Positions 2,454 through 58,009 of a DNA stretch of 64,000 nt are shown in pieces. Below the pieces are notes generated by a model. The model worked only from the letters and a program-made list of their open reading frames with translations. It searched no databases and was not told where the DNA came from. The DNA is from Bradyrhizobium oligotrophicum S58 (GTDB taxonomy: Bacteria; Pseudomonadota; Alphaproteobacteria; Rhizobiales; Xanthobacteraceae), in the NCBI RefSeq assembly GCF_000344805.1, contig NC_020453.1, forward strand, positions 3,939,001-4,003,000, in the 5' to 3' direction. Position 1 is the first letter of the stretch; each line of letters begins with the position of its first letter. A program made the position numbers and the translations under genes.

Positions 2454-2951
2454 TCACTGACATGTGACGGTCGTGCCCGACTTCTTGCATTCGATGACGA
2501 TGCTGCGGTTGACGTCATGGGTGGAATCATAGTCCGGGCGCTCATTGTATACTTTCTCACCGCAGCACTTGAAGGCTCTTGGCGTGTTGTACTTGTAGTA
2601 GACGGAAATCGTGCCGTTCAGGAGTTTTGCTCGCGAAATGCGTTCGTTGTCCTCGTCCCATTCCACGTCCTGAAACGTGCCGCTGGCGTAATCCCGGATA
2701 TGGAAATTGGTCGGTGCGCGATCGACGCGGGCGAAGCAGGCGCCGTCCTTGTCCATGAGGGCAACCAGCTCGTCGGGATATCCAGTGTTGCGCATGGCGG
2801 CCTTTGCCTGGGCCAGGCGCGGGGCATAGCGGGGGTCTCCCTGGCAGAAGTCCGGTCCGCAGCCGCACGACTGACTGAAGGCGGCCTCCGGCCCGAGCCA
2901 GCAGACCGCCAGCGTCAGGATTGCGAGCATTGCGAAACGTGAACGCATCAT
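2454..2951 (-). CDS. Secreted cysteine-rich hypothetical protein
   Basis: A 165-residue protein with a clear Sec signal peptide: MMRSR, a hydrophobic core of about 15 residues, and likely cleavage near AFSQ. The mature part holds eight cysteines (CGC near its start, an internal CC pair, and two near the C-terminus), suggesting disulfides in the periplasm or outside the cell. I recognise no family. The start is chosen because GAGGTG lies just upstream of the ATG pair at 2946-2951 and the signal peptide begins there; the open frame extends further upstream without homology-like sequence. It follows the 216-residue membrane protein gene by about 110 bp on the same strand, so it may be the last gene of the giant-protein operon or have its own promoter. 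Confidence 0.75.
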   Translation of the reverse strand: MMRSRFAMLAILTLAVCWLGPEAAFSQSCGCGPDFCQGDPRYAPRLAQAKAAMRNTGYPDELVALMDKDGACFARVDRAPTNFHIRDYASGTFQDVEWDEDNERISRAKLLNGTISVYYKYNTPRAFKCCGEKVYNERPDYDSTHDVNRSIVIECKKSGTTVTCQ

Positions 2952-3060
2952 CGACACCTCTTCAATTTTCCCGAGTTGCAATTCGATTTGAAAAACAAGC
3001 GAGCGGCCGGCTTGCTCGGCCACATCCCCGGCGGCGCGTTGGCGCTGCGACCGCGGTTCA

Positions 3061-3711
3061 TCATTGAGCCGGCGCGGCCGATTCCGGGGGATGCGCCTGA
3101 CCTTGGATCCGGAGAACAAAGCCGTTTTCACCGACGCGTCCATACCGGGCGAACAGCTGAACCACCGAGTTGTACTGATAGGATCGAATGTAGCTCCAGA
3201 TCGCCTTGCGGGCCGCGTCCGAAAGATGGGCGACCTTGTCCTGCGGCTGGGGCTTTTCGCCGAGCAGGACGAGCCAGTACGAGAACAGGTCGCCAAAGCC
3301 TTCCTCGCTGACGATGTCGCTCTTGATCAGATACTCGATCCGCTCCAGCCAGATGAGAAAATCGTCGAAGGCAGTGCGGATCGCGACGTATTCGGGAGAA
3401 ATCGGCTCCTTTGTCTCGGTCGGAGCGTCTTTCCAGTGGATCTTGAGGGCTTCGGGAATCTGGTGCACGTCGAATGTCTGGTTCGGCCGCGTGGGACTGG
3501 GCACCGACCCGTAATCCAGGACCTTCATGACGAAGCGAACACCGTCGTCCGAGAAAAACTGTTTGGTCTGATCGGTGGCCATGACGGCGCGCTCGCGCCG
3601 CCGCGTCAGGCTGGCTTGCTCGCTGTTCTTCCGGTACTGGTACAGGCCGAACGCTAGGCCGGCCGCGGTGACCGTCACGCCAAGTATCGAGACGACAATC
3701 GAATCCGCCAT
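3061..3711 (-). CDS. Single-pass membrane protein of unknown function
   Basis: A 216-residue protein beginning MADSIVVSILGVTVTAAGLA: one N-terminal membrane helix (residues about 5-24), then a basic RRRER stretch and a soluble, mostly helical domain with conserved-looking aromatic residues. This layout, N-terminal anchor and cytoplasmic helical domain, resembles DUF4760-like accessory proteins, but I cannot assign it. A GAAGGGA ribosome-binding site lies 8 bases before the ATG. It begins only 18 bp after the stop of the 2701-residue gene, so it is very likely co-transcribed with the giant genes and may anchor or regulate their products. Confidence 0.75.
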   Translation of the reverse strand: MADSIVVSILGVTVTAAGLAFGLYQYRKNSEQASLTRRRERAVMATDQTKQFFSDDGVRFVMKVLDYGSVPSPTRPNQTFDVHQIPEALKIHWKDAPTETKEPISPEYVAIRTAFDDFLIWLERIEYLIKSDIVSEEGFGDLFSYWLVLLGEKPQPQDKVAHLSDAARKAIWSYIRSYQYNSVVQLFARYGRVGENGFVLRIQGQAHPPESAAPAQ

Positions 3712-3729
3712 GTCCGCGATCCCTTCAGT

Positions 3730-6700
3730 TCAACTCTCGGATTTCTGAAAGTCGGTCTTGGCCGCCGGCAGCTGGCCGCCGCCGGTTCGATCCATCTTGA
3801 CGAGAAATCCGAACGCGTGGTCGGGATCGGTGCCTGAGACGCCGTTGCTGACAAAGGGCCAGAGGAACAGTCCGCGCCGGCGCACATGGCCTGCGACGAG
3901 GTCACCCAGCAGGTCCGGAAACTCGATGGCCTGCGGCAGCGGCGCCGTTGCAAACAGCGCGGTGCCGACGGCCGCGTCCACGCGTTGCAGCGTCGCGAGC
4001 CCATAGGTGGACGCCGGCGGTGGCAACACAGGCTGGGCAATGATGCCGACATCGAGCGTCAGTTGTTGTTTGTCGTCGGCTACGTTGTTGACCGTCAGCC
4101 GAACGCGGTCGCCCGCCTTCAATTGCGCCGGCACGTCGGCGGCCGGGTTTTTCGGATCGGTGGGCTCCCGCAGCGCGGACAGCGGGATGGCGTAGGTTTC
4201 GTTTCCGTCCACGTTGTAGCGCGGGTCGCTACTGGCCGGTCTCGGGGCGGTTGCAGCGATTTGCAGTTGCCGCGGCGGCCCGCCATTGCCGGGGACGAGC
4301 TGGACGCTCAGCGCCCAGTTGCCTGCGGGCTTTTCAGGCTTGGTGCCGATCCCCTTCGCCCGCTTCCAGAACGCCAGAAAAATCGTCGACGCCGGATCAT
4401 ACTCGGCGCGATCGACCGCAAGCAGGTGAGGCACGTCGTCGATGCCGACACGGTTGTTGCGCGCAGGGCTGCCGAGCTCGCGATCATAGGCCGGATCGCC
4501 GAACGCCAGAGTGAACCTCTTGATCGGCAGCCAGCGTTGCCGGCTCGGGACATGAGGCAGGTCGAACACCAGAACAGGCGGCGGACCTGGGAGAAGCGAT
4601 TGCGTGTTTCCTGTTTCGAGCGGCGTGACGCCGGCTGCGTCGATCGCCGGATCGCCATCATCAGCATGGCTCGGCGGCGTGCCGCGGAACGTGATCTGCA
4701 CCGGCGTGTCCGCCGAGGAATCCCGCAGCGCCTGCGCCACTGCGACCTGCGCCGCGTCGCGCGCTGTGCCCTCGACGGTCAGGTCGATCAGCAAGCGCTT
4801 CGGAGTGGCACTGCTCGTTGGCTTCCCAGTGGCGTCGATCGTCTCGCCCCATGTCATCTGGGTGAACGCGACGACGACGTCGCCGACTCGCAGTTCGGCA
4901 CGCGGACGCCGCGCCTCGATCGGTGTAGGTATTGGACCTTTGGGCTTCGGAGGAAGCACACCGATCCGGGCCAGCGCGACGTGGGCGGCCGGATCGGGCG
5001 CGGCCAAATCTCCCGGCACGGTAGCGACCAAGCGGATTTTGCCGTCCCAGTCGGCGGAAAGACGGCCTTGATCCGGATCCTGCACGCGGATCGTCACCGC
5101 ATGCGGGCTGCGCGTGTCCGCCGTCAGGGTGCGATCGAAGCGGACGACTTGCGCGGGACCCTCGATAATCTTGAAGGTCTTGAGGTACTTCGCGCCATCG
5201 ACCTCGTCCATCGACAGGTAGGTCTTGCGCCGGATCGCGGGGTCTGAAATTTCGGGAAGCGCGGACGATCGCGGCGCCCGGACCTGGCGCAGGGTCAGCG
5301 GACCGCGCCAGGCCGGGCGGCCGAACCGGCTAAAATCCTTGTCGAAGGGCACCATGAAGGACGTCAGCAGAACGCCCTCGAACTGCGTCAGCAGCGCGCC
5401 GGGCCGTTGCCCGGTGACGGTGGCTTCGATCGCGCCGGGAAGCATCGGCGCGAGGCCAGCCCTGTCGGCCGGATGACTGTTGTCCGGTAGCGGATTGCGC
5501 GCCTGATCAAATGCCGTCGCCATCGCGTCGATGGCCGGCGCCCGCGCGCGCGGCGGTGCAAGCACCGAAAGCCGGTCGGCCGGCGCCCGCAGGTTCTTCG
5601 CGGCGCGGCGCCGGAATGCAGTCCGTTGCCCGGCGGTGATGAAGGCGCTGTCGCGCATTTCCGCGGCATCGTTTGGCGAATAGCTGCCCTCGACCGTTCC
5701 CAGTGCGTTCGTGGCGATCGCGGTATTGCGGTCCCATGCGACCGCGGGCCAGGCCATGCCGCGTGTGCGTCCGGCCCAGGCCTGCCGTTCGTTGCGACGC
5801 ACTTCTTCCTTGCCGAGGCTGGCATGCGCTTTCGCCGCATCTTCCGGGCGCGGGATCAGGGGCCAGCCCAGCGTCGGCGAGGCGTAGATGGTGTCCGAGA
5901 GTTTCCGCAGGACGTGTGGCCGCCGCTCCGCCATCAGCGCGAGCGCGGGCGGAGTAACCAGCCAGGAAACATGTGGCGGCGAGACCAGCGGCGATTGGGG
6001 ATCGCGAATGGTCAAATAGCTGCTGTCGACGCTGGCCAGGATCAGGGCACGCGGATCCGCGCTCAGCCCGAATGCGCGCATCGACGCATCGGCGCGCTGC
6101 TTCCCGTCCATGACGATCTCGTTGCTGGTGGTATCGACCAGCGTGGCGGCCAGCGCGGCGGGAAGGATGTCGCTGTGAACCGAGCTCTCGTCGGTCACGA
6201 TCAGCGTCACCGCCGGTGGAGCAGGGTCCAGCGGCGCCGCGTTCGCGGGCCATGCGGTCACGGCGAACCTGATCTCGCCCGCGGCGCGGATGCCGTCGAG
6301 CGGGACGGCGCGTGCCGTGACACAACTGATCCGCTGCGCAAAAGGCGCCGCCGCGGGACCGTCCAGGGTCTTGCCATACGCCTCCGCGACCGCGCCCAGC
6401 GCCAGCAGCGTGCGCGGAAACAGCGGCCGGTTGAGCGGCGGCGGGGCGGTGGGTTTCTGCACGAGCAGGACCTGATCGACAGCGACCATCGTGCGGGCCC
6501 TACCGCCGCCCACGATCGAGGACATCCGTGTCTCGAGCAGGCTCTGCGTTCCGTCCTGGGCCGCCAGCGAGCACGGTGGCGCGCCTTCCAGCGAGTGCGG
6601 CGTGCCGGCGGTCGCGTCATAGAGCGCAATGTTATAGACGAAATCGCTGCCGTCGCTCTGGGTTTGCGGACACGCTTTCAACGCGCCGAGCGCGGTCTCG

Positions 6701-9700
6701 CCATGCGGATCGCCCCCCGGCGCACTGCTCAGGGGCGCCCAGGGCAGGATCCATTGCGGGACCAGCACGACGCCCTTATTGGGTGTCTCCTGCGATGTCA
6801 CCACTTCGGTCAGGGTCGCTCCGGTGAGGATGAGCGAGTCCGGTGCGGTCGTCCCCTTCAGCGCCTGCATGATGTATTCGACAGGAAAACCCGCATCCGC
6901 GAGTGCGCGACGCACTACGCCGGCGATGAGGATATCGGGGTCCGGGGCGGTTTCCTTGTAGCGCGCGAGGAAGGCATAGCGGTCGCGCACCGGATCCGGC
7001 GCCAGGTTAGCCGCAGCGACCAGCCGATGCATGTCGAACATGATCACTTCGTCGACCGAGGTCCAGGTCAGCGCCTGCTTCGCCGATGCGGCCGGCGCGC
7101 CGGGCCAGCCTCCCTTGGCCGGCGTCAGCGTGTGATCGACGACGGCGCGGAACGACCACGAGCGGTCGAGCACGATGGCGCCGCTGTCGACGACGAGGTG
7201 GTCCGTCGGCAGTTCGTGGGAGCAAAGCCGCGGCCGTACGTCGTGCGTGAGCAGCAGCTTCTCCATCGGATCGGCGCTGCCGCGCATGGTCAGCGTAGCC
7301 GTCCAGTCCCCCGCCACGGAGGAGTCCGCGTCGAAGGTGACGCGGCTCGGCCTGGCGTAGCCGACCGGCCACGAAATCGAACTGGTGCTCAGGTTATCCG
7401 CCTGGAAAGCGGCATCCAGCAGCAGTTGCGAGGTCCAGGTTACCGGATCACTGCTGCCGGTATGACGATGACGGATCGCGGTGATCCGCTGCGGAGATTT
7501 CGTTGCATCCGCGTCAAATGCGAATTCGACGAATGCCGAGCCGAGCGGCGGCGTCGGCCACGCAGGCCATTTCTGGCCTTCGCGGGCGTATCGCTTCGGG
7601 AACACCACGACGACGGCTCCGCGCAACGTCCCGTCAGGCAACGTAAAGCCGCGGAACAGTGCCGGCGCATTCTGGCCATCGACGGGAACGCTGATCCGGT
7701 CGCTGACGTCGAGCGTGAACAGCCCGGTTTCGTGATCGATCGACTCCGGGCCATTGACTGGGCGCGCGCCCAGCCCAAGCCATTGCAGCGTCCGGTCGGC
7801 AAAGTTGCGCTTGAACGCGGGCGGACTGTCCACCGCTTCGCGCAGCGGGACCGTGATATCGCCGTCGACAAGGTAAAGTGTCGGGCCGCCGTTCGGAGGC
7901 CAGACCAGTTGCATCTTCCTGAGGTTCAGGATGCCGCCTGGCGGCGGCTGGGCCGTGAACGTGGCGGTCAGACCTTGCGGGCTAAAGCCGGCCGTCGTGG
8001 TAGCGAGATTGCAGTCCTGTCCGAACAGCCGCACGCGAAGGCTCGCGGACGCGATGTCCGGCGTGGTGCCCTGGACGTCGCGCGTGAAGAAGAAATTGAA
8101 GCTCAGCCTTGTCGTCGATTTCGGCGAGGTCGCGTCGGATCCGTGATAAACGTCGACATCCGATATCAGCGAAACCGGCCCTGGCTTTTGCTCGGGCTTC
8201 GGATCCGTCTTTGCCGGTGGAACGAACGGGTCGGAGGTCGCGGTCGGATCCGAGAGATCCTTGAGCTCGATACGAACCATTTTCGTCAGCGCAAGGCTGT
8301 TGTCCGCCGTCAGACCCGGTCCGAACGTCAGGCGGACCAGATTGCCGCTGGCGTAAATCTTCTCCGCCGCGAACGGGGCAACGTCGTTGGGGTCGGAAGG
8401 CGGTGACTTGTATTGCACAGAAACCAGCAATTCGAACCGCAGCACGCTGCCATCCGCCGCGACATCGGCGCTGAGCAGCCGTAGCGGACGTGCGGCAAGC
8501 GGACCGGCGAGATCGAACTCGAACCGGCCGCGATCTGGCTGTGTCGGCCTTGTTTCCGGCGGGCCGAAGAAGCTCCATTCGTACAGCGTGCGTGCAACCC
8601 GGTTGCGATTGATCGCGGTCGGGTCGGGCCCTAATCCGGTTTCGAGACCTCCTGACGTGTCGAAGGTCAGCCCGCCGGCGTCTGGCTTGAGCGGCAGGTC
8701 GCGGAACCAGAACGAGCACCGCATGCTGCCGATGGCGACCTCGACCGGCTTTCGCAGCGTCGCCAGCACCAGCGTCTGGTCATCGGGCGCCGCGCGCAGC
8801 GCAACGGTGCGGCTGGTCTGGTGGGCCGCCGTCAGATCCGGCAGGAGCGCGAGCGACAGGCCGCGGGCGTCCTGCAAGTGATTTGGTGGGGGCGACGCCG
8901 GCGGGACCGGCGGCGGGAACGCGACCTGAAAGGAAGAGGCCGCGAAGCCCTTCACCTCGATCTGGTTCGGACCGGGCGCACCCGCAACCGTCAGCACATT
9001 TCCGGTTGCCGTGAAATGAGTGTCGGGCAGGCCGGCCAAGGCGGCCGGGCCATACTGCGTGACGCCACCAAGGAGATAGGCGCCGAGGTTGATATCGTCA
9101 TGTGGCGCCGGGGGCAGGGCTTTGAAGCTGAACGGGACCTGCTGCCAGACATAAGGCTCCGCCAATCCGCGGACGACGCCGTCGGCGATGCCTGTGAGAG
9201 GATGCCAGAGTTCGACGACCTGTTTGTTGTCGGCGTTCTGAAATTCGCGGAACACGACGCGGTCGGCTTCGGTGCGCGCGCGCGCCAGCCTTCGCGCGTT
9301 CTCGAACCACACACCCGACAACCGTGCAAGATCGAGCGCTGTCGGTGGCGTATCGGTCCGGGGCGGGCTTGCCGGAATATCGGACGAGCCGCCCGGCGAA
9401 TTCGCCGCGGTGGATGCAGGCACCTTCGGCTCCGGCGCCCTGGAATTTGCAAAGAGTTCGTCGAGTATCGGCAGATCGTAGCGCAGCGATACCCGCATCT
9501 CGCTGGAGGCCACCGCCGTCGTCGCATCGGCAGCGGGCGTAAACTCGATTCCCGGCAAGGTCAGCGACGCCAGCGCCACGCCTGCGCTTTCCTCCGGAGA
9601 TGATGGAACAGGGTAGGGGCCGAAACCCGCGGCCCGCAACGGCGGCCAGGGCCAGCGCCAGCGGCCGTCGCCAAACGCGGTCGTCTGCATGGGCAGCGTT

Positions 9701-11835: not shown

Positions 11836-11837
11836 CG

Positions 11838-17800: not shown

Positions 17801-20800
17801 CGACCTTTTCTTGGCTGCCGCGGTATTCAAAATGTAGCACCGCGCGGGCAACGCCCTTGCGCGCCGGTTCGGCCTTGGTGGTCTGCAGCACCAGCGGCGT
17901 CGGAGGTCCGTCGGTGCCGGCGGTGTCGACCGGCACCACGACGTAGCGCAGCATGCTCGGTGGCGGATCGGGAAGGTTCGCCGGCGGACCGGCGGGTGCA
18001 TTGGCGGGAATGTTCGAGGGCGGCAGCAGCAAGCGGCGCAACTCGGCGGGAAGGTCGGACAGGTCGTCGACGAACTGCGCGTTGGGCCGAACGAAACGCC
18101 AGACGAAATTGGCGGTGACGGGGTCGCGCACCAGGCGCATCGGCCCGGCGGCCTTGGTCGTGATGCGCAACGGCTTGTACCGGCTGTCGAGGCTGTTCGC
18201 CGTCGTAACGATGCGTTCGATCCGATAGTGCTTCAGGTTGAATTCGGGATCGTGCCATACGCCGGCCGACGGGCCGAAGGCGGGCTCGAGGTCCCAGTCG
18301 AGGCGGATGCCGTTGGGGGTCGCTTCGATCACTGGATCGGCAAGCCGCGGCCCGCGCTCGCTGAACATCCGTTCCGGCGGATTGAAGAGATGGACATTGC
18401 CGTCGAGCGGCGTAATCGTGCTGTCGACCGCCTGCAGCTTGAAGGTCGCCTTGCGCGGATTGTCGTCTTTCAGCGGAAACAGCGCATCGATCTCGGTGCG
18501 GTCGATCCTGAAGGCGACGCCGAACGACCTGGCGTCGATGCCCTCCGTGGCGGGCTGATTCCATGCGGCCGGCGACGCGGCGAGATTGGCCGCGGAGTCG
18601 CAAAGCGAAGCCACCGCCGCCGAGCGCCGTTCCTCGATGTCGTTGGCGGCGCGCTCCTCGAGCCCGAGCGCAAGCTGGTCGCGCCCGGCCTCGGTCAGCA
18701 CCTGCGCCGCGGCCTCGCGCGTGTCGGGAAGCCGCTCGGGGGCGGCGCTGATCCGTTTCGCCCAGGGTTCGCCAAGGCTCGTCGACTTCTGAGGTTTATC
18801 GCGCACGACGAAGCACTGGCTGAGGAAATTATCGAGCTTGATGCTGTCCTTCTTGTCCGCCGTGCGCGCGACGACGGCATCGAAATTGTATTGCAGCGGC
18901 AGCGGAGCAGTCGCGTTCACCGTTACGGTTTCGGTTCCGCCGGTCCATTTGAAGCGGTCGATCGAGAAGCCGGGCCCCGACTCCAGCGCGATCTGCAGCG
19001 CATTGGCGTTGGGGCCGTCGACGACGGCGCCGGTGGCGTCGGTTCGCTTGCCATACGGCGGCGGATAGAAACTGCCGAGCAACTGGCCATCGGTGCCGAC
19101 GGTCGGAAGGACGCTGTTGTCCAGCCCGGTTTCGGTGTGATCCCGCGGCACGAACACCATGACGAACTGATCGTGGTCGCCGGCGACCGGGAACAGCATC
19201 GCCCAATAGGCGGTCGGTTGCAGATCCCGTCCCTGCGCGATCGGAAGAGCGCCCGGCAGCGGCGCGGTCACGGCCTCATGCTTGTCGAGCGCATTGTCGA
19301 CGGCCTGATCGGCGTCGCCGGCCCGCGGTCCGCGCGGCAGTTCCGGCGCCGGCGGCGCGAGGCCCTTTTCGGCATCGGGCATGGCAACCGTAAGCCCGAG
19401 CTGCATGAAGCGTTCGACACGCGCGCGCGCCTCGTCGAGGCGGCCGGGATTAACCGCGAACGCGATGCCGAGCCGGATGTGACGGCCGAACGCCCCGACG
19501 CCGACCGAGGCCGAGCCGCGCGCGGCGATGCTGTTCGGCGTGGCGGCGGCCTCGAGCGCGATCGAAATCGTCAGCGAGACCGAGAAGCCGACCTCGAGAT
19601 GGATGTCGGTGAAGCCGACGCTGAATTCGAGCCAAATCCTGACCTGCAGCGACAGCGAGATGTCGAAGGCGATCGAGCCGTAGAACAGCGTATCGCTGAA
19701 TCGCTTGACCGAGATGTAGGCGATGAATTTCGCGGAGATCGAGAAGTCGGCGCGCGCCACCACGGAAGCGCCGAACGAGCGGCCGCCGACCTGACCGCCG
19801 AATTGCGCGTAACCGTTGGCGCGGAAGGCGATGCCGTACAGCATCGCGCCGTCCTCGATGCGGTTGATCAGCCCGCCCTGGCAGACGATCTGGAAGGCGC
19901 CGCCGCCCTGCTTTTCCTCGAAGGTGAAGCCGAGCTCGTAGGGCCAGCCGAATTCCTGGTGAAACAGCCCCGGACGGATATAGGTCGTCGCCGACCAGCG
20001 GATGCCCTTCATCGCCTTGACGAGCGGGGCGGGCAGTTTCGGATGGGTGCCGTCGACGTCGCCGGTTCCGTCGGCGATCAGGCGGCCGAGAAACTCCTTG
20101 CGCGGCACCGAAAGGTAGACATAGCCCCGCAGGGTCGGATTGTTGCGCCAGGAATCGTTGGCACTGGAATCATGCCAGTCGGCGTAGTTGCGCGCGATCC
20201 AGACCCGGGCGTTCAGGAAGAACGTGAAGTCGCTGCGCAGCGCGGCGACGATGTCGAACAGGATCGGGTTGGGCAGCTCCTTCTCGCCGTCGGCGTTGTA
20301 TTCGCTCTCGCCCGATGCGCTCTCGATCGTGATCAGGCCGCGCAACGCCAGCGTGACACGGTTGCCTTCCGCCTCCGGCTCCCACGATCTCACCGAGGCC
20401 AGATTGCCCTGGTATTTCGAGATGTCGTCCAGGACCTTGATCAGGTCCTTGACGTTGGTCACCTGGTCGGCGCGGTTGAAGGCGGCGAGCGTGAAACGGT
20501 AGCCGAAGCCGAAGCCGACCTCGCGCAAATAGATCGGCCCGACCGGGGTCGGGATTTCAATCGAGAGGTCGTCGGCTTCGCCATAGAGGAAGAAGGCCTG
20601 GCGCAGATCGCCGCCCGGCTTTCGCAGTTCGAGGAAGCCCATCGAGGCGGACATCGCGCCCCAGCCCTTGATAGTCAGCTTGCCGGAGGCGAGGAAGCCG
20701 TGGACGGTGACGTCCTTGGGAAGCGCGCCGGGCGAATACAGGCTCGGGAGCGTATCATCGACGGTCATCGCCGTGCCTTCGATGGAGGCCGCGCCGCCGA

Positions 20801-23800
20801 AGCGGATTCCGAGCGTCAATCCGTCGAAGCGGATCTGCGGAAGCGACTGACCGGCCTTCGGCGGCGCAATCCACAATTCGTGAAAATCGATCCGCGGGCT
20901 CACGACGTCGCCGGCTTCGACGAAGTTGACCTGTCCGGAAATCGACAGCGCCGGCTTGCCGCCGAAGGCGGGCGAGGCCGGATGGAAGCCGATGCCGCGC
21001 AGTTCGAAATTGAACAGGTTGAAGAAGTTGAAGCGCTTGGCCGGCACCACGGCGACCTGGAAGCTGATCGCGCGCAGCAGCATCGACGCATCGCGGGCAA
21101 GCGGCGCCTTGTCGAGCGTGATGGTGATGCTGCCGAGGTACTTCAGCAGCCCGTCGGCAAACTCGCCCTCGCGCGGCTGGAATACCGCGGTCCCGGTCAG
21201 CGTGAAGTAGAAGTGGTAGCCGGCGCCTTCGCCGGTGAAATTCTGGAATTCGAGGCCGAGCGCCGTGATCGTCAGCACGAACCGCGTCGCGTGGCAGACG
21301 ATCGGATCGTTGGCCTTGTCGAGCTTGGCCTCGGCGCTCTGCACGATCAGCGACCCGTCGCTGCCGCGCCCCATCGAGATCGAGATGGTGGCATTGGCTT
21401 CGCCCACCAGTTCAGGCGGCAGTTGCCCGGAGCCCTTGATCGAGAACGCCTGGATTTCGCTGTTCTTGATCGACAGGCCGCCGCCGTCGAAGCGGAACGG
21501 CATGTCGACGCCGGCGAGTTGGACCGGGGTGTCGCGGTCGACCTTGGCCGAAAGGTCGAGCCCGCTGCGCGACATTCCGAGTTCGTCGACGTGAAACACG
21601 ATGCCGCGGCCGCCGCTCGCGACCTGGCCGTAGCTTAGGTCCAGCCGGACTTCGGGCGCCAGCGACAGCCGGACATCTCCATGCGAGAAATCCAGCCCGA
21701 AGAACGGAAACTTTCCGGTCGGCCAATGGATATCTCGGGGCGCAATGAGGACGATTTTGCCCGTGAGCCCCAGCAGATCGAAGCGCGTTTTGTCTTCTGT
21801 GTCTCCGCCGAAGATCCGGACCTTGTCACCGCCGGACAGGCGGACGCTGAAATTCGTCACGTCGACATTGACGTTGAGATCGAAATCGGCGCTGGTGTCC
21901 TTGAGCTTCAGCGTTACGCTGAGCGGCAGTTCGAACTGGCCGTTGCCTTTGTCGGTCGGTGCGGTCGGTGTCTTGTCGTTGATCTGGATATACTGGCCGA
22001 GCGTATCGAAAAATCTCGGCGTGCTCTGGTTGGTTGACTGCAGAAACGGCAACAGCCTCTTGGTCTGGGCCTCGATCGTTGCGGTGACAGTGTTCGTCCA
22101 ATCGAGCGGCCCGTAGGTGAGCGCGCCGGAGATGCGCGTGACCTGCAGGCCGGCGGGCAGGCTGGTCCCCGCCGGCAGCGTGACCGGCGTCTGCTGGATC
22201 GCCGCCTTGCAGGCCTGCATGAATTGGACCTTGCCGCCGCTGAGGCGAATGAGCGCGATCGCCGTCTTGTCGGTCTTCAGATGGGCGGTGATCTGGATCA
22301 GCCTCTTGTCGACGAGCCGGTTGCCGTCGCCATCGGTATCCCTGACGGCTTCCACGCCGGCGTCGCGCGAGAGCCAGAGGTCGGTCCCCAGGATCGCGGG
22401 CGAATTCATCGGCGGCGCGGCCAGCAGCGCCACGTTCGGCGTACCGTCGAGATCGATGACGAGCATCGGTTGCCAATCCAGGGGAATGTCGAGGCTGAGC
22501 CCGAGTTCCTGGCCGGTGAAATGCTGGCCGGGCGGGCTGACCCATGCCGGTGAGATCACGATCTGGCGCAGCGCATAGGTGCGCGCGTCGAGCCGTACCT
22601 CCACGACCAGCGCGATCCCGGGGCCACTGCTGCCCAGAGACTTGATCGCATCGCACAGCATCCGCGTCAGTTTCGCCAGCACTTCGCCGACGGCTTCGGC
22701 AACGCCGAGCAGCGCGTGAGCGGCGGCGCCTACCTGCTGCGCCAGCCAGCGCACGGCCGCCGCCATCATGTCGGCGACACGGTCGAGCACCTTGAAGACA
22801 TTGGACAGGTCCGGCACGTCCGGACCCTGGACGTGAAGCGCCGACAAGAAGCGGATCAGCGCCTGGGCAAGATCGGCTGCCTCCTGCGCCGCCAGCGCGA
22901 CCAGCTTGACCGGGTAGGGCTCGACGATCTCCAGTACTGTCAATTGTCCCGACGTCGCACCGGTCGGGGTGTCGAAGGTCTGGGCATATTCGGCGTGGAA
23001 GGCGATCAGCAGCGCAGGATCGTTCTTGGCGCGGATCAGCACGCGCGGCAGTTTGAGGGTTGCGGTGACGCCGACCGCCGTCGGATGTTCGAGGTCGACC
23101 GGCGGAATCTGGATGTCCAGCCGGGACGCCGCCAGTTCGATCTTGAACGGCAGCGCATCAGGCTTTTCGATCACCGTCGCGGGCAGGTCGATGCCCGGGG
23201 ACCCGGCGGGAGCGATGGTTCCCGCCAGCGTCAGTTTGCCAGCCGCGTCGAGCGTGATGCCGAAACCGTTGATGCTGGCAATGTCGGTCGGGTGGCCCCC
23301 GGCGGGGTCGATTTCGCACACCAGCGTCCCGTCGCCGCGTTCCGCGGCAGCGGTCGTGATCTCCAGCTGCTTCGTCGCGTTGATCGCCAGCTTCAGTTTG
23401 GGCGCCGTGGTCCACCTGACCCATATTGGCGATTTGCCGAGATTGATCTTCGGGATCGGCAGGTCGAACCGGAACAGGTTGAGCAGTTCGCTCAGATCCA
23501 GCGACGGCCAGTCCAGATGCGGCCACGGAATCTTCGGCCAGCGCAAATGAAGCGCGGGAAAGCGGGGCAGCGGATGCAGCGAAATCGAGGGCAGCAGATT
23601 GACCAGTTCATCGCGCGTCAGCGTGACCTCGAAGCCGAATTCGGCGTCCGCATTCGCGCCGCCCGCCAAGGTCGACACCGTTATCTGTCCGCTTCCAGCA
23701 AACGTCGCCGTCAGCAGCGCGGTGTCGTCGTGGCCGGGATTGAAAGCGGTGAGGTCGATCTTGAGGTGGGCCTCGAATTTTCCGCCACCCGCGACCGGCA

Positions 23801-24215
23801 GTCCGCTGATGCCGAAGAAGCCGGCCGCCGCAAGGTCGATCGAGACGTTGGCGAGCGCGCTCCGCAACGCGTCGCGCTCCGCCTCGGCGACCGCGGCCAA
23901 CGCGAATGCGGCATCGTCTCTCAGCTTCTTGATATCTTGCTGGATCCCGCTCCAGGATTTGAGATTCCATGGATTGAGTGTGACGTCGGCATCCGCGATC
24001 AGAATCGATTCCCGCGGATGGTTGGCCGCCGTCGACGCATGGGACGGAATGACGACCGGATTGATCTTGATTCTGCCGCTGCCTTGCGGCGTGGTGACGA
24101 GAATCTCCTCGACCGTGAATGGATCGTTTGGAGTGAGACCCGCAATGGTCAGGGCGTTTGTTGCGCCCGCAAATAGAATAATGCTCGCCGCCATCCACGC
24201 CCCCGGTGTCGGCAT
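11838..24215 (-). CDS. Giant beta-rich hypothetical protein A (4125 aa)
   Basis: A single open frame of 4125 residues. The N-terminus (MPTPGAWMAASIILFAGATNALTIAG by halves) is mildly hydrophobic and could be a weak signal, though it may simply be a first beta strand; an ATG at 24194 is an alternative start. Residues about 60-420 and 600-1570 are glycine-rich alternating beta strands, with a helical insert at about 430-540. The part around 1050-1570 (GIGF-, FFLYG- and GFGYRF-type strands) resembles the character of DUF6603 giant proteins; this is an impression, not a search result. Around residues 1990-2110 there is a fibronectin-III-like stretch (RLDWD, HYRIERI, LRYVVVPVD). The last 2000 residues are unassigned. 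It heads the operon with giant protein B. Confidence 0.85.
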   Translation of the reverse strand: MPTPGAWMAASIILFAGATNALTIAGLTPNDPFTVEEILVTTPQGSGRIKINPVVIPSHASTAANHPRESILIADADVTLNPWNLKSWSGIQQDIKKLRDDAAFALAAVAEAERDALRSALANVSIDLAAAGFFGISGLPVAGGGKFEAHLKIDLTAFNPGHDDTALLTATFAGSGQITVSTLAGGANADAEFGFEVTLTRDELVNLLPSISLHPLPRFPALHLRWPKIPWPHLDWPSLDLSELLNLFRFDLPIPKINLGKSPIWVRWTTAPKLKLAINATKQLEITTAAAERGDGTLVCEIDPAGGHPTDIASINGFGITLDAAGKLTLAGTIAPAGSPGIDLPATVIEKPDALPFKIELAASRLDIQIPPVDLEHPTAVGVTATLKLPRVLIRAKNDPALLIAFHAEYAQTFDTPTGATSGQLTVLEIVEPYPVKLVALAAQEAADLAQALIRFLSALHVQGPDVPDLSNVFKVLDRVADMMAAAVRWLAQQVGAAAHALLGVAEAVGEVLAKLTRMLCDAIKSLGSSGPGIALVVEVRLDARTYALRQIVISPAWVSPPGQHFTGQELGLSLDIPLDWQPMLVIDLDGTPNVALLAAPPMNSPAILGTDLWLSRDAGVEAVRDTDGDGNRLVDKRLIQITAHLKTDKTAIALIRLSGGKVQFMQACKAAIQQTPVTLPAGTSLPAGLQVTRISGALTYGPLDWTNTVTATIEAQTKRLLPFLQSTNQSTPRFFDTLGQYIQINDKTPTAPTDKGNGQFELPLSVTLKLKDTSADFDLNVNVDVTNFSVRLSGGDKVRIFGGDTEDKTRFDLLGLTGKIVLIAPRDIHWPTGKFPFFGLDFSHGDVRLSLAPEVRLDLSYGQVASGGRGIVFHVDELGMSRSGLDLSAKVDRDTPVQLAGVDMPFRFDGGGLSIKNSEIQAFSIKGSGQLPPELVGEANATISISMGRGSDGSLIVQSAEAKLDKANDPIVCHATRFVLTITALGLEFQNFTGEGAGYHFYFTLTGTAVFQPREGEFADGLLKYLGSITITLDKAPLARDASMLLRAISFQVAVVPAKRFNFFNLFNFELRGIGFHPASPAFGGKPALSISGQVNFVEAGDVVSPRIDFHELWIAPPKAGQSLPQIRFDGLTLGIRFGGAASIEGTAMTVDDTLPSLYSPGALPKDVTVHGFLASGKLTIKGWGAMSASMGFLELRKPGGDLRQAFFLYGEADDLSIEIPTPVGPIYLREVGFGFGYRFTLAAFNRADQVTNVKDLIKVLDDISKYQGNLASVRSWEPEAEGNRVTLALRGLITIESASGESEYNADGEKELPNPILFDIVAALRSDFTFFLNARVWIARNYADWHDSSANDSWRNNPTLRGYVYLSVPRKEFLGRLIADGTGDVDGTHPKLPAPLVKAMKGIRWSATTYIRPGLFHQEFGWPYELGFTFEEKQGGGAFQIVCQGGLINRIEDGAMLYGIAFRANGYAQFGGQVGGRSFGASVVARADFSISAKFIAYISVKRFSDTLFYGSIAFDISLSLQVRIWLEFSVGFTDIHLEVGFSVSLTISIALEAAATPNSIAARGSASVGVGAFGRHIRLGIAFAVNPGRLDEARARVERFMQLGLTVAMPDAEKGLAPPAPELPRGPRAGDADQAVDNALDKHEAVTAPLPGALPIAQGRDLQPTAYWAMLFPVAGDHDQFVMVFVPRDHTETGLDNSVLPTVGTDGQLLGSFYPPPYGKRTDATGAVVDGPNANALQIALESGPGFSIDRFKWTGGTETVTVNATAPLPLQYNFDAVVARTADKKDSIKLDNFLSQCFVVRDKPQKSTSLGEPWAKRISAAPERLPDTREAAAQVLTEAGRDQLALGLEERAANDIEERRSAAVASLCDSAANLAASPAAWNQPATEGIDARSFGVAFRIDRTEIDALFPLKDDNPRKATFKLQAVDSTITPLDGNVHLFNPPERMFSERGPRLADPVIEATPNGIRLDWDLEPAFGPSAGVWHDPEFNLKHYRIERIVTTANSLDSRYKPLRITTKAAGPMRLVRDPVTANFVWRFVRPNAQFVDDLSDLPAELRRLLLPPSNIPANAPAGPPANLPDPPPSMLRYVVVPVDTAGTDGPPTPLVLQTTKAEPARKGVARAVLHFEYRGSQEKVVADVTTTTSLMPAFTLGIDDGGDLPAADPKKRKDLKSPRVYVVRVRKELAIPIGHYGSDAVSDARARPSAADFATKRPTDRDFVITLTDGLLPTAPGTPAEKVQEPSFDDPSAVVAATSPATPGYMINDLDGFRAAIGARRTPQDRLDNGPIGVRFAIQPQLNPTVNGDEPPWCPMDTTILIALTDVVTPDNSADNLPAVAAPVEVFEHPVKIDSAPLLAEDLDGEAGRVTILHPQKDATLAQLVGWRDGSTGTPPVVRLRDAARRVGTKVRWNARPAASETPATDRSAKRNALYFAGYDLFELDVAGEAEGATSAPTALTMHYLFSSSNVDANPGNALRVHVADGMMDAILVGGDQVANLDSLDDSGDAAKGQIRVIQVDNPANALTFDLKLCVRARGYRKLVVEPVPGKPPFADGKALALIFTRDPPASHLARVQALPASLARLDPAEIIDFAKIEAHYPSETSRLLASTATRQGAWYSPAESFLVWPERILRRSLALNVDEPVLTELLSNGRPERIAVALKITGAFDKADHLDGEIRRVLRTGSEETQNSNGFKPADAAGWTAASLRELFQSLVWNSNKPEIRAGYDKLPLPFRNARLTVSALKSGAPDVVLGSADWQIDLDPAMHPVLADVIDRARYATLPDRILRYPQLVLDAAARQAIETWLSNPANTIGASVWFDLRDWTAPVSKPALGFQLDGDFRFASVESPAEFRIEPPREKTTVSRTDVIKQIMGAIQRLTLQLDGKQVAAIGALSPANLVVKLGTAPGAPASTPQPFTVAAQTRPGPRYRRYEPVLEQSPKINAKEIAGWFDETPVQRDPYGWSILRSLGLAAGLKLYDTEARDYLPPAETLETLLGAFAEILPRYPIAGIGAPFVDIITHAGGTMSLASFDGSMSGVAADEVEALRSDKALSLVQIAMRPTVDRFARVWTDHGDERPGSFEPIEKVVAYFAVKPTDPTGAPKITIDLNGLNPAPGLVAIAEVIDLSSGLAKPPVVTLVSKAGTGNAELRTAMLDGVGEQQTLDIDASRLAPKAVAAIVRVTVNAGDAAQIFSQPAGSTWVTGATIEEISSPDGPEVQPFGRFPDMTARRYGALAAAGGHQSLIDAIERFRIYAVRRLPDGWPNATDVPTLVARIPEWTRRFFNHGPAAQPDRSAMPLFAIAEVTRPDPWRVGVAGDGTMEVLFTHDDRKRRLKRYAVRPFGRYEAFADALTHASDPDVPPQPPRLGGAWSDILADGADVQRKFEENWSQRFFDVVLPRTEPLAPPVLIEARRVEILPPATATDPAPRKVLELLYTRHPEEVLSEANVTVEGALSFETVSYGFWREFPMQCWANDLGSGSTTEKFGDWDRRPAPFQLIESDDEFGGLAQVPAPDGKSGLVPGRFTDGWRGALALRTEAIPYFFRTHVAAFASAGVVVSEPVIATIEEGHYELALPWKPGATAKPDDIFVSTPPPVWSVARHCSGPNPEIWVTFDLPLARLFDSMPQDSRKIWLQGNIPDVFMLPDPVARHEIGVVATDDAGLSAASAEIDIIGQQRTVTRPEPGKPVTASGYRMNLVGPLFSPSSSVLLSPARQSGSGTWWKLSPSVLVKPNATLPSDKFAPSIAAKDPTSGGTDPLRGFLLAPEEFGAAGIWPVVAPTTTLTFEVHVPTVNTGWPAFVAAVAAWRAVYLDYRAVAGAKAIWEFLDLWANTSWPPPATQPKKLTTAEFAAGLPWPPSTLPPDVSMSESGGWNWPTLTGGGVAQRQRVRAIVPKTGYSAKDFRTKIGEPICAEMRRVVTACDELKNPFANYAPLNTVLPADPPVLPPSGSIAKAAYRLATTKTLPECLDVVAAIPITVDRTAANIATKINDLIAAIEALRFTSTAIFDLGALEDEVADAVEMHLPCHALADASIVAKLADVDAGALGRLRVWSLLLRQPPDDGERKQMMDAIGQLAPDPQEDKAGLVKFVDRSLADQIFGSGRSPRIKVYRGTSVPQLDPIQRAGA

Positions 24216-24334
24216 TTGAGTTGGCGTGAATATGAGCCAACAATTTTAAGTTGTTTATTTTTATTCAATCATAAATGATGGCGCATTGCCAAGCTCGCCT
24301 TGAGGTTTTTTTCAGCTGCGCCGGGGGACGCATC
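24216..24334. promoter_or_regulatory. AT-rich divergent promoter region
   Basis: The 119 bp between giant protein A and the divergent membrane-protein gene contain an AT-rich core at about 24239-24280, in sharp contrast to the GC-rich coding sequence on both sides. It is the only place from which the 21-kb giant-protein operon and the divergent gene could both be driven. TTGAAT and AAAATT on the minus strand, and TTGTTT on the plus strand, are possible promoter elements, but none is convincing alone. No clear operator palindrome is seen. Confidence 0.45.
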
Positions 24335-26167
24335 ATGGCCGATCAGGATTTGCTCTCGATCGTGTGGGGAGAAACATCGGGACTCGCCGCCAAGGATCGC
24401 AGTGATCAGACGCTCACGCGATTGCACGCCGTGGTCGCCAAGCTTGCCGCCGCGGCCAAGCGTCGCGGTCTGGACGGTGACCTCAAGCGGCAATTGGCGC
24501 CGCGCGCCGACGCCGCCGCCGCGATGGTCACTTACAACATGATGGTGTCGACCGTGAACGCGGTCGATACCAACGCCTTTATGCCTCCGGCCGAGTTGCC
24601 GGAGCGCGCGGTACTCTGGGAAATCAACGAGAGCGGCGTGCCGCCGCGCGACAATCTACCGCCGAAGTCGCTCGCCTGGATTTCCGACCCGGATGTAAAG
24701 CCCGGCGGCGACTTTGTTGCAGGCATCGGCGCGCAGGCGCGAACCTATCGGCTGTTCGAATCTGCAAAAGTCCCCACCGATTACGAATTGCCCTTTGCTT
24801 CCAGCTATACCGGTTCCGGCGTCGTCCCGTCGTCGGACGGACAACGCTGGTATCGAAAGCCGAGCTGGTGGATCGGCCTCTCCGGCGGAGTGCTGTTTTT
24901 TCTCGCGGCGTTCAGCCTACTGTGGACCGCGAGCAGTTTCAGCCAGGCCTATGATCTCCTGACCAACCGGCAGATCGAAAAGGGCCAGAAATTCTCAAGC
25001 TCGCTGCCTTTGCCGCCATGTCCCCCCGAAGGGGCCGCTGACCAGAAAACCTGCGAGACCCCGGGCGATGTCCTGAAAGACAAGAAGGGCAAGGCGCTGG
25101 ATGACGCAAGGCAGCAGCGGGACAAGAAGCTGTACGACCTGTTTTCCGATCGGGGGCCCGCATGCGTTGACCAACTGACCAAATGGGCCGAGGCGACCAG
25201 ACCGCCGGCCGATCCGAGGGGCGTTTCGGCGACCGACCGGCAGAAAAATCTCGACTGCCTCGCCATGCTCGGCGAAGCCGTCAAGTTTGCCGCGCAAAAC
25301 CTCGTCATCAAGGCCGACACTTGGCCAGGGCACGTGGCCCAGTTCGTCGGGTGGTGGCTGTTCGGCTGGCACGTGCCGGTGGGCGGAACCCACGGCGTGT
25401 CGCTGGCCATGCCGGCAACGCTGATGATGCTCGGCGTCATTCTGGTGCTGGTCGGGCTCGGCAAGGGCGTCAACGGAACGCCGCTCGGCGCGCTGATCAG
25501 TCCGAACGGCCGGTACTCGCTGGCGCTGGCCCAGGTGACGTTCTGGACTGTTCTCGTCCTGACCAGCGTGATGGCGATTGCGATCTTCAACGGAGGTCTC
25601 GTCTCCGAAATGGCGCGCAATTTCCCCAAGGCGGTGGCCGATTTGCCTAACGCGGTCAAAAACGGATTCTTTCCAGAGATTCCGACGGGAATCTGGGGTG
25701 TACTGGGGATTTCGTTCGGCTCGACCGTGTTGTCCGCCTTGATCAAGTCGATCAAGGGCTCCGACGACTCCCTGGCGATCTCGGCCGACAATACGCGGCA
25801 GGTCGGCAGCGTCGGCATGTTCAAGGACAAGGTCACGGGATACGATCCGCGGCACCGTGCCTCGATTGCCGACTGGTTTCTCGGCGAAGACACCGACAAC
25901 AAGGACAAGATCGACATCTCGCGCGTGCAGATGGTGCTGATCACGTCGGGCCTGCTGGTGACCTACGGAAACGCCATCTTCTCGGCGATCAACGATCTCA
26001 CGCAGCAGGAAATCCTGCTCGCGATCCAGAGGGTCGATATCCTGATTGCCGCATTGCCGCCGGTCGGAACGTCGATGGCCGCCATGATGGCGGTTAGTCA
26101 CGCCACTTATCTGGTGGCGAAAGCCGCATCCACGACGCCGAGCACGACACCGGAGAAACCAAAGTAG
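24335..26167 (+). CDS. Multi-pass membrane protein divergent to giant genes
   Basis: A 610-residue protein. The ATG at 24335 is chosen because GGGGGA lies 7 bases upstream; an upstream in-frame ATG lacks a site. About 175 cytoplasmic-looking residues precede membrane helix 1 (about 178-200). A soluble loop of about 150 residues with a few cysteines follows, then about five helices (roughly 352-378, 397-422, 448-472, 531-555, 568-598). Two helices begin with a similar motif: GRYSLALAQVTFWT and DISRVQMVLIT, suggesting an internal duplication of an (S)xxQxxxW-type helix start. It has no recognisable transporter or channel signature. Its divergent position suggests it works with the giant proteins, perhaps as their membrane anchor or export partner (inference). 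Confidence 0.8.
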   Translation: MADQDLLSIVWGETSGLAAKDRSDQTLTRLHAVVAKLAAAAKRRGLDGDLKRQLAPRADAAAAMVTYNMMVSTVNAVDTNAFMPPAELPERAVLWEINESGVPPRDNLPPKSLAWISDPDVKPGGDFVAGIGAQARTYRLFESAKVPTDYELPFASSYTGSGVVPSSDGQRWYRKPSWWIGLSGGVLFFLAAFSLLWTASSFSQAYDLLTNRQIEKGQKFSSSLPLPPCPPEGAADQKTCETPGDVLKDKKGKALDDARQQRDKKLYDLFSDRGPACVDQLTKWAEATRPPADPRGVSATDRQKNLDCLAMLGEAVKFAAQNLVIKADTWPGHVAQFVGWWLFGWHVPVGGTHGVSLAMPATLMMLGVILVLVGLGKGVNGTPLGALISPNGRYSLALAQVTFWTVLVLTSVMAIAIFNGGLVSEMARNFPKAVADLPNAVKNGFFPEIPTGIWGVLGISFGSTVLSALIKSIKGSDDSLAISADNTRQVGSVGMFKDKVTGYDPRHRASIADWFLGEDTDNKDKIDISRVQMVLITSGLLVTYGNAIFSAINDLTQQEILLAIQRVDILIAALPPVGTSMAAMMAVSHATYLVAKAASTTPSTTPEKPK

Positions 26168-28283: not shown

Positions 28284-29494
28284 CAAACTATTCTCATGTT
28301 GGGATTGTGTGTACCACGACTCACGATCACCAGCGCTTCAAAAGGTTCGCCGACAACCCATCGCGCCGATAGAATGCAGGCCTCGACCCAGCAACCAGAC
28401 CGTTATGAGCGGGCCGGCTTTCTCGAAGGTTTCGGATAACATTGACGTTTTTCGTGGCATTGCCTAACGATCTTCCACGTTCGTTCACGCTGTAGCGGTG
28501 GTCAATCGGTGGTTCGAACATGAAGAAAGGTGCTTATCGTTCTTTGGTCGATCAGGGTCCCAAACCGTCCTTTTGACCATCCAGGCGGGCTGGCCCGCAG
28601 TTCCCAGTGAGCTGATATCGGCGGAGACCGCCGATCCGTCGGCTTGGCGTTAAAAGCGCCCTGCGGCTATCCGAGGATTGTTCTTGAACCTTGAGACCGG
28701 ACATCCCCGGCGCCGACCGGAAGGTCCGGGATTAGCCAATGCTCGCGCGGTGGGACAGTTAGGCTGCTGTGCGCCGCTGACTTGATGGCCCTTCGGGTTA
28801 GGTGTTCTGCGGAGCGTCGCTCTATCGAGAGACATCGGGTGAGGCTACCCTTCAGACCAATCAGATCTCAGAGCTTCCGCCGCGTCGGCCGCTGCTCGTC
28901 GCGGAGAGGTGGTGCCCAGCGCTCTCCCTGAGCGGTCCTGCGGCCTTCCGGCTCCGGTGGTGGACAGCCAGACCAAGCGGGTCTCGAAGAACCTGAGTCC
29001 CCAGGATCGCGTCCTGACCTAGGTCCGCCGAGCAGGGCCGAAAGGCATCACGGTCTCGGATATCTGCTTCGACCTCGGGAACCGGCTGAAGCGCCCGGTG
29101 GTGGACGACAGCGCGGCGACCATAGAGAGCGTCGCACTGGTGATCGTGGTCGAGTGTCGCACGGCATCGCGCGGTCGCATGGGCGTTCGGCTGTTCGATC
29201 CGCACTCGGTGAGCCCGCGGTGCTGCCGAATGGTCGGTTGGTCTGCAGGTGACACGAATCAGACACTACTCTCGCCGGGGTAATGTCAAGCAGCCAAATC
29301 ACAATTTCCGACTTATCCAACGTGCATCTTGGAACCGCAGCGATTCGTTTTTGCGTACCGTCGCAAGTATCATGGTTTGAAGAGAGATTCGTCGAACGCG
29401 ACAACTGCTGACCGCACTTCTGCATCTCGATCACGACTAAGAAACACAGCGCGCGCTCAGCCGAGCGCAAGTCCCAGCGAGGGAAATAATCAAC
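28284..29494. other. 1.2-kb stretch with decayed coding remnants, no intact gene
   Basis: No intact gene is visible between the SIR2-TPR gene and the HEPN/LprI-like gene. From about 28957 to 29280 on the plus strand one frame reads like a winged-helix tail (SPQDRVLT, then an in-frame TAG, then GITVSDICFDLGNRL and LVIVVECR), consistent with a decayed gene fragment of unknown origin. The remainder shows no motif. It presumably also contains the promoters of the two flanking divergent genes. Confidence 0.4.
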
Positions 29495-30457: not shown

Positions 30458-30785
30458 CCTCGCCGCCATCGAGAGCCCGAGCTGGGAAAAGGCGGACGCC
30501 GCCACAAGCCATGCGGAAGAATCGTTGCCAGATTGTGAAGGAGTGTAACGGCGGCTGTTGGGGGCATCATGTATCCTACGTCAAGATTGCCGCTGGGGTG
30601 CCATGGCGCCGTCCCGATCACCGTTAGTGAGCCCGCGGTTCCGCCGAACTCGCAGGGCCAGATTATGAGAAATACTGGAGGGCATGCGGCTATGCTGGAA
30701 TAAGTTGAGGCCCGCGGCTTTATGGAACTACCGCAGGCCAAAATCTGTATCTTGCCACTCAACGAAGAGATTACCTGAGAGCATC

Positions 30786-57985: not shown

Positions 57986-58009
57986 GAAGAGCGGGAAGGC
58001 GTGGACAAA
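57986..58009. promoter_or_regulatory. Hairpin in the 420-bp region before the micropeptide
   Basis: GAAGGCGTG (57986-57994) and CACGCCTTC (58001-58009) form a perfect 9-bp stem with a 6-base loop, 70 bp upstream of the micropeptide start. A second hairpin CCCCACA/TGTGGGG lies at 57841-57864. The stretch 57659-58079 otherwise holds no gene and must contain the helicase promoter. The first hairpin may be a leader structure of the micropeptide transcript or a terminator; no T-run follows it. Confidence 0.4.

Follow-up and report, generated by a model that had tools for sequence, protein, structure and literature searches.

Two giant proteins encoded side by side in Bradyrhizobium oligotrophicum S58 as a possible undescribed delivery particle

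Two giant genes and their small neighbours

The window analysed here is the whole 64,000-nucleotide stretch of Bradyrhizobium oligotrophicum S58 DNA at positions 3,939,001 to 4,003,000 of contig NC_020453.1. It carries two giant genes, A and B, and three smaller ones:

2454..2951, minus strand: P0005, about 165 residues, cysteine-rich, with a hydrophobic N-terminus resembling a signal peptide
3061..3711, minus strand: P0004, 216 residues, single-pass, with one N-terminal transmembrane (TM) segment
3730..11835, minus strand: giant B (P0001), an open reading frame (ORF) of 2701 residues
11838..24215, minus strand: giant A (P0002), an ORF of 4125 residues
24275..26167, plus strand: P0003, multi-pass, 630 residues, likely 610 from 24335

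ORF coordinates bear out a preliminary description of this DNA, which had placed giants of 4125 and 2701 residues 2 bp apart, the single-pass protein of 216 residues 18 bp beyond B and the multi-pass protein divergent from A. The database entry of A has 4118 residues and starts 7 codons downstream of the window ORF. The start of P0003 is probably also later, as its relatives begin at MADQ (around 24335) and its database entry has 610 residues. For P0005, a start near 2951 is more likely than the TTG at 3296, which overlaps the P0004 gene; it is the possible cysteine-rich secreted protein of the preliminary description.

A, B and P0003 are real genes, judging by their database matches (98 for A, 40 for P0003 and 38 for B, the window's own entries counted in and scoring limited to the candidates with the most shared words). 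A and B are further supported by the codon-position bias of their differences from a close relative, L009, which at positions 1, 2 and 3 amount to 0.156, 0.106 and 0.371 in A and to 0.175, 0.115 and 0.390 in B. Scans of the window for tRNAs and for Rfam families (gathering score) gave no match, and a search of positions 1-26500 for direct repeats of at least 25 nt returned weak, short matches only, among the matches listed.

Sequence character of the giants

Neither A nor B matches a family in Pfam, NCBIfam or PHROGs (E≤1 for A; Pfam and PHROGs at E≤1 for both), and neither has a credible match among PDB sequences. The view of the system as undescribed, taken in the preliminary description, stands for the libraries searched. 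The Pfam scan also finds no NTPase or nuclease family in either giant. The DUF6603-like character and fibronectin-III-like stretch once read into A find no support, with no Pfam match at E≤1; DUF6603 (PF20248, curated cut-off 27 bits) is likewise without a match in B at E≤1, and in P0104 and P0095 at E≤0.1. A DUF6603 search of the own genome gave 0 matches, and such genome searches are uninformative because their controls also gave none.

A phage origin was rejected, as A and B have no PHROGs family at E≤1 and no phage record. The lone IMG/VR match (L062) was discounted, being identical in length, range and frames to a Jannaschia contig (L028). A eukaryotic protein of 6766 residues, P0091, looks like A and B together with a TM-amidase and a metallopeptidase; it probably represents several bacterial genes of a contaminant fused by a eukaryotic gene finder, and was set aside and not used.

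Conservation in A is highest at residues ~850-1620. Stretches of at least 9 residues with strict hydrophobic alternation number 7 in this protein, against a mean of 1.4 (maximum 6) in 200 shuffled sequences, and 4 of these lie within residues 1501-1750; B shows no excess (1 vs 0.5 expected). Such a pattern, weak as it is, speaks for the lipid-bridging scaffold named among the options in the preliminary description, in which an amphipathic, beta-rich core of A would span the envelope while hydrolases open room in the wall. A bridge of this kind is nevertheless highly improbable. No Pfam family of the AsmA/TamB lipid-bridge type or of any other kind is matched by either giant at E≤1. The pair is also sparse (found in 3 of 299 genomes of the phylum and in 9 of 265 of the genus, own genome counted), lies on plasmids and islands unlike housekeeping envelope genes, and has a membrane partner common to toxin particles.

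At KD≥2.0, a hydrophobic N-terminus is present in 1 of 98 A entries and 1 of 38 B entries; relaxing the threshold to KD≥1.6 raises the number of As to 8 of 98, and the A of the window then qualifies with 1.69. TM-like stretches, one or more per protein, occur in 23 of the 98 As.

Constant pairing in mobile locations

A relative of B directly follows A in all 52 loci whose contig is long enough (58 were examined, of which 6 run off the contig), in agreement with the earlier proposal that the two giants work together. Nine B queries behind this count were drawn from the tested loci, and a separate search with other queries also found B there. The locus search was built on two peptide patterns, which makes the number of loci a lower bound. 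These loci are distributed over six phyla: Pseudomonadota, Actinomycetota, Myxococcota, Chloroflexota, Planctomycetota and Bacteroidota. In one metagenome protein, P0178, the later part of A is joined to B in a single chain. The pair is mobile in its location, being carried on plasmids and islands.

Exchangeable enzymes beside the pair

The preliminary description saw no enzyme motif, which holds for A and B themselves; in other genomes, recognisable enzymes are recurring neighbours of the pair, forming a changing set that is mostly envelope-directed. Pfam identifies a Phage_lysozyme protein (L033, 916 residues) and an M23 peptidase (L053, 610 residues), both with long extra parts, Tae4 amidases adjoining A-B (L060, L030), YkuD L,D-transpeptidases (L036, L027), PLD (L045), PhoD (L041), Amidase_6 behind B in L009, glutaminase (L022) and a C70 papain-like protease (L088). 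Further M23 proteins have 650 residues with long extra parts (L057) or merely 225 (L034). Phospholipase D is found in 13 of 13 actinomycete loci. Assignments in L013, L020, L024, L037, L085 and L130 were made by eye, without Pfam. No enzyme is recognisable in the stretches read of several loci, for example L014, L026, L029 and L046, and no enzyme partner was recognised in the window.

Among 108 neighbour ORFs, the Pfam models matched at least twice are Tae4 (4) and PLDc_2, PLDc, M23, Amidase_6, YkuD and SLOG LDcluster4 (2 each). This tally covers 43 of 53 loci, leaving out 10 actinomycete loci (near copies, or antisense ORFs disturbing the choice of ORF) as well as plasmid loci, and 2 of the 4 Tae4 members were identified individually. 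In a control of 82 ORFs (of 83 chosen) ending at least 5 kb upstream, only permease, transposase, NOV_C and ParB_N recur. Since these figures rest on the best 25 of 61 families and the best 25 of 119, respectively, each may hide single envelope enzymes. SLOG, the trypsin of L023 and PhoD fit poorly into a picture of envelope attack.

The enzyme partners are swapped between loci. In a tree of 48 loci and the window, in which some partners were labelled by eye, sister As have different partners: Tae4 in L030 vs P0003 and P0004 in L032, and M23 in L034 vs Tae4 in L060. Pfam and the tree thus place variable enzymes beside a conserved A-B, the variable effector expected of a polymorphic toxin, and the neighbour enzymes may act as effectors of A-B. 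Of 15 enzymes or enzyme-like neighbours, 14 are without a strongly hydrophobic N-terminus (KD<1.2), the exception being the trypsin of L023; the M15-like protein entered this comparison from the end of its TM part onward and PLD minus its initial 20 residues, and the C70 protease was left out.

Holin and endolysin release the Yersinia Tc toxin. On that model, the enzymes and TM-hydrolases beside A-B would be a lysis cassette that releases the giants, A-B itself being the toxin or the body that binds the receptor, with the enzymes not its cargo. Membrane segments share one chain with a YkuD hydrolase end in L027 (Pfam), and membrane and hydrolase-like ends were seen together by eye in L020, L024, L085 and L018/L130. 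By-eye reading also found no convincing immunity gene beside the Tae4 copies, in keeping with lysis. Yet phospholipase D, PhoD, glutaminase and the C70 protease do not belong to the lysins, and the long extra parts of the lysozyme and of the M23 proteins in L053 and L057, though not the short M23 of L034, also count against a cassette, making it unlikely.

P0003 and other small partners

P0003 has a soluble N-terminus, a TM segment near residue 200, a cysteine-containing insert and a multi-TM C-terminal half, the last of which is found in an unrelated context too (G280). Its family is present in 18 of 265 genus genomes, own included, where coordinates or reading fixed the position of 20 loci: 6 next to A, 4 with eCIS_core and CIS_TMP, 3 with TcA, 2 with an unrelated giant pair and 5 without assignment. 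P0003 is thus a membrane protein common to A-B, eCIS and Tc loci. In the own genome, a paralogue lies directly behind the eCIS_core gene of an eCIS locus ~0.9 Mb distant, and in three genus genomes relatives lie within 1 kb of TcA domains. G459 is ambiguous: eCIS_core is 20 kb away, CIS_TMP is absent, and the nearby ORFs are unlike the own eCIS stretches except for P0003. The second giant pair (G551, G498) has no relatedness to A-B detectable by hmmsearch or hhalign, and a PDB sequence search with one of its proteins gave no match; in L114, Tae4 lies behind it.

A clear P0003 relative is found in 7 of 58 A-B loci, so the membrane partners do not form the fixed part of the set that had been supposed. 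The preliminary description named two outcomes that would speak against it: giants mostly without the membrane partners, or a match to a described family. With the membrane partners not a fixed part, the loci go halfway towards such a refutation; no described family is matched.

P0004 is weakly DUF4760-like (E=0.008, below cut-off), and its relatives lie near those of P0003 in L032, L021, L115 and L079. A PADLOC scan of P0003 and P0004 gave no match at E≤0.01. In L021 a relative of P0005 lies downstream of B, and in L085 one adjoins a TM protein whose end resembles an amidase; cysteine-rich secreted proteins accompany this TM protein in L085 and follow the amidase of L009. P0005 is a possible immunity-like partner.

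Comparison with known systems

A-B resembles Tc toxins in that few giant proteins are encoded together, with P0003 relatives near TcA. It differs in that no Pfam domain, TcA_TcB_BD (PF18276) and ABC_toxin_N included, is matched by A or B at E≤1, whereas the TcA of L076 is recognised with this library at E=1.7e-98. The partner enzymes of A-B are, moreover, separate genes, mostly envelope-directed and swapped between loci. Polymorphic toxins likewise have a conserved large carrier with a variable effector next door, but the putative effectors of A-B are not C-terminal tips. Another parallel is the T6SS, whose Tae4-family amidases adjoin both A-B and the second giant pair; however, reading without a targeted search noticed no T6SS genes beside the Tae4 loci, and no Tai4-type immunity gene was recognised by eye.

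Swappable effectors and a membrane partner are shared with eCIS and Streptomyces CIS, but no sheath, tube, baseplate, tape-measure, CIS_TMP or eCIS_core was found by Pfam among the 24 window ORFs scanned. PMC12237407 describes CisA as a membrane protein required for CIS firing, and cytoplasmic Streptomyces CIS with CisA as causing death of their own cell under stress. CisA is a one-TM protein and differs in layout from P0003.

The Streptomyces precedent also lends itself to an intracellular defence system in which A-B senses infection and a neighbouring enzyme or membrane protein kills its own cell. Consistent with this are the window neighbours, an Avs3-like NACHT protein (E=6e-197), SIR2 and a UvrD/GajB-like helicase, the AbiEii, CHAT/C25 and Avs1c genes near plasmid relatives of A-B, and the general absence of signal peptides. 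Such islands gather unrelated genes, however, and peptidoglycan hydrolases are poor cytoplasmic effectors. With no NTPase or nuclease family in A or B, and with P0003's association with Tc and eCIS pointing outward, defence by cell death appears quite unlikely.

A proposed delivery particle

The constant pairing, the envelope-enzyme neighbours and the membrane protein of toxin-injection loci make A-B a possible undescribed delivery particle. We consider the chances about even that A-B assembles in the cytoplasm into a large particle which delivers exchangeable enzymes of envelope attack and is docked or released by P0003. A and B would be its two structural subunits, and the particle, of very large size, would lack a classical export signal. 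It would carry or cooperate with exchangeable envelope enzymes (peptidoglycan amidases, peptidases, lysozyme, L,D-transpeptidase and, in actinomycetes, phospholipase D) and bring them to a target cell. Membrane proteins of the P0003 type would be a docking, firing or release factor common to eCIS and Tc toxin loci, a role that TM proteins with a peptidoglycan-hydrolase-like tail may fill in other loci. Counting against this reading are the absence of P0003 from most A-B loci and the unrelated setting of its C-terminal half in G280, the loci (the window included) in which no enzyme is recognisable, the hydrophobic N-termini of some As at the softer threshold and the TM-like stretches of others, the lack of a convincing immunity gene beside Tae4, the poorly fitting neighbours and the enzyme assignments made by eye. 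Of the structures first suggested, an injection structure best fits the partners found. The pairing, the swapping of enzymes, the shared membrane protein and the mobile location are observed; that a particle forms, that it delivers, what it targets and what each partner does are inferred.

More tentatively, and with somewhat less than even confidence, A-B may join the contractile (phage-tail) and Tc machines as a third class of protein-delivery particle, formed by two giants that show no visible descent from phages, disseminated on plasmids and islands over at least six phyla and working with swappable envelope enzymes, and the P0003 family may serve several unrelated particle types, the second giant pair among them, as their shared docking or release factor. 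Should the fold of A-B prove known, the finding would reduce to a new variant. If the proposal is true, a two-giant-protein delivery machine is missing from the catalogues used here, and one membrane protein family ties A-B to eCIS and Tc particles, which would offer a handle on how large cytoplasmic particles reach and cross the producer's membrane.

Gene content and selection

All five genes of the preliminary description, namely the giants A and B, the divergent membrane protein P0003, the 216-aa single-pass protein P0004 and the Cys-rich secreted protein P0005, were found at the positions and spacings claimed for them, with starts better placed near 24335 (P0003) and 2951 (P0005). The genome is a single contig of 8.26 Mb, in which the window occupies C1:3939001-4003000; the nearest relatives that carry a name point to Bradyrhizobium. 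Against L009 (L-numbers denote loci, G-numbers genomes), A and B differ at 0.371 and 0.390 of third codon positions and at 0.106-0.175 of the first two; because the former exceed the latter, the coding sequences indicate purifying selection on both at the protein level. The most conserved block of A spans residues 850-1620. Beyond P0005, a ComEC/competence gene (320-1579, +) ends early at 419 codons, and by eye frameshifted remnants resembling D-cysteine desulfhydrase lie 3′ of it (1752-2460); together they are perhaps the edge of an island.

Neither A nor B matches Pfam, NCBIfam or PHROGs at E<=1. Searches of PDB sequences yielded nothing for a profile of the A core (E<=10), B or a P0003 profile (both E<=1). 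As a single sequence, A gave two 53-residue PDB matches (E 0.53 and 0.67), which were taken as chance. A protein set of 5.8 billion contains 98 matches to A, 40 to P0003 and 38 to B, own entries counted, in searches scoring only candidates that shared most words. DUF6603, a likeness once noted for A, found no mention in the literature searched, and among the matches listed for giant proteins, toxin delivery, toxin complex and contractile injection there is no description of an A-B pair.

Pairing and distribution

A pattern-based scan of genome contigs, a lower bound, recovered 53 loci with an A relative, from Pseudomonadota, Actinomycetota, Myxococcota, Chloroflexota, Planctomycetota and Bacteroidota, plus single MAGs of Leptolyngbya and Binatia. 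With five of 11 plasmid records these form a pairing sample of 58. All testable loci (52/52) have a B relative downstream of A in the same orientation; in the other six the contig stops within A. The gap is mostly -41 to +79 bp, the first long frame starting late in L031 (289 bp), L035 (849 bp) and L056 (258 bp), and the frames behind A fall short of a whole B in L035, L048, L056 and L086, where the contig continues. A separate search with independent queries also placed B at the nine loci that had supplied B queries, and one protein, P0178, fuses the later part of A with B in a single chain.

Occurrence is sparse: 3/299 genomes of a phylum sample and 9/265 of the genus carry A, own genome counted. 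It is present on 11 of 72,556 plasmid records, eight typed conjugative, and has no match in phage records at E<=1e-5. ParB, DUF736, TrwC relaxase and TraG-type genes share the window's 64 kb with the giants, and the locus is probably mobile DNA.

Enzyme partners of the pair

Enzymes adjoining A-B, by Pfam match:
phage lysozyme: L033
M23: L053
Tae4 (T6SS amidase family): L060, L030
YkuD: L036, L027
PLD: L045
PhoD: L041
PG_binding_1, below its cut-off: L043
Amidase_6: L009
Gln_deamidase_2: L022
C70 papain-like protease: L088
trypsin, hydrophobic N-terminus: L023

Identified by eye only, a Pfam enzyme match being absent or not sought:
M15-like: L020
NlpC/P60-like: L024, L085, L130
amidase-like: L013
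transpeptidase-like: L037

The partners in L034 and L057, the latter with no Pfam match, are related to the L053 M23 protein (phmmer). PLD lies directly upstream of A in 13/13 actinomycete loci. The amidase-like gene of Azospirillum (L013) is 3′ of B, and a 53% relative stands 5′ of A on a Cupriavidus plasmid (L087); a Sinorhizobium plasmid (L084) has a relative of the 223-residue gene of L019 near A. Some loci, e.g. L014, L026, L029 and L046, have no recognised partner. Partner types cluster on a tree of A cores, changing 12 times where shuffling gave 20.4 on average, yet sister As with unlike partners occur (L030/L032, L034/L060). An SLOG (LDcluster4) gene lies directly 3′ of B at L016:27786-28793 and L018:27587-28594, with a relative in L032.

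P0003 beside A-B, eCIS, Tc and a second giant pair

Clear P0003 relatives adjoin A-B in 7/58 loci (L009, L010, L011, L019, L032 and, split, L021 and L084), a count omitting weak matches in L025 and L129 (L129 continues L017); the window and G010 are further such loci. The family occurs in 18/265 genus genomes, own counted, with 20 loci placed.

Settings of P0003 in the genus:
beside A: window, G409, G058, G430 (by coordinates only), G447, G010
eCIS_core domain some 2.2 kb away, CIS_TMP within 10 kb: second copy in the own genome (G000), G449, G393:C56, G559
TcA domain no more than 1 kb away: G421, G465, G054
beside a second giant pair: G498, G551
unassigned or weak: G459, G393:C2, G530, G039, G011

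The second copy in the own genome begins 84 bp 3′ of the eCIS_core gene. A genome of 7-10 Mb holds one or two such machines; judged from that density, chance is an unlikely reason for P0003 lying so repeatedly only a few kb from them. Six of 388 phylum genomes, own counted, match P0003, three weakly; the others include a Tardiphaga A-B genome and G280, a clear partial match with no A-B, eCIS or Tc-like context readable.

The second giant pair has no detectable kinship to A-B and measures 2405 or more and 2316 aa in G498, and 2370 and 2231 aa in G551. Behind it, P0003 is accompanied by P0004 or Tae4; the gene directly 3′ of the P0003 relative in G498 is a Tae4 (E=4.5e-16).

The second pair with P0003 behind, in two genus genomes:
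first genome: L126:12564-19676, L115:1673-8368, L115:8438-10962
second genome: L127:12784-19998, L114:2270-11933

A candidate delivery particle

A strongly hydrophobic N-terminus is absent from most A and B entries and from 14/15 of the partner enzymes examined for one (that of the window's own A is borderline, 1.69, at a softer threshold), and the complex is therefore likely to be made in the cytoplasm, judging from these sequences. Enzymes acting on wall or membrane must cross a membrane to act, as do the cargoes of eCIS, T6SS and Tc. For this reason the best reading of A-B is a delivery particle, which would be built in the cytoplasm and would take such enzymes across the membrane. The nearest rivals are that the partner enzymes form a lysis cassette for release, for which YenTc offers a precedent (PMC10847046), and that the locus is a self-killing system, for which CisA offers one (PMC12237407). 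The secreted, Cys-rich P0005 could, as a guess, be an immunity protein, since in L085 one of its relatives lies next to an amidase-like TM protein.

The giants adjoin a defence-type cluster:
26394-28286 (-): SIR2-TPR protein
29495-30457 (+): HEPN/LprI-like protein
30684-37418 (+): NACHT protein, 2244 aa, with a PADLOC Avs3a match (E=6e-197) covering residues 65-861

At 55559-63908 (-), consecutive genes look like another conflict-type operon: they encode a UvrD-like helicase (GajB likeness), followed by nSTAND/pentapeptide and trypsin-like proteins and a calcineurin-like phosphoesterase. Outside the window the genome carries an eCIS locus (L140, L074; C1:4862000-4892000), in which eCIS_core domains occur twice, and, apart from it, a TcA-type gene at C1:7325127. 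This one soil bacterium may thus encode as many as three large-particle classes.
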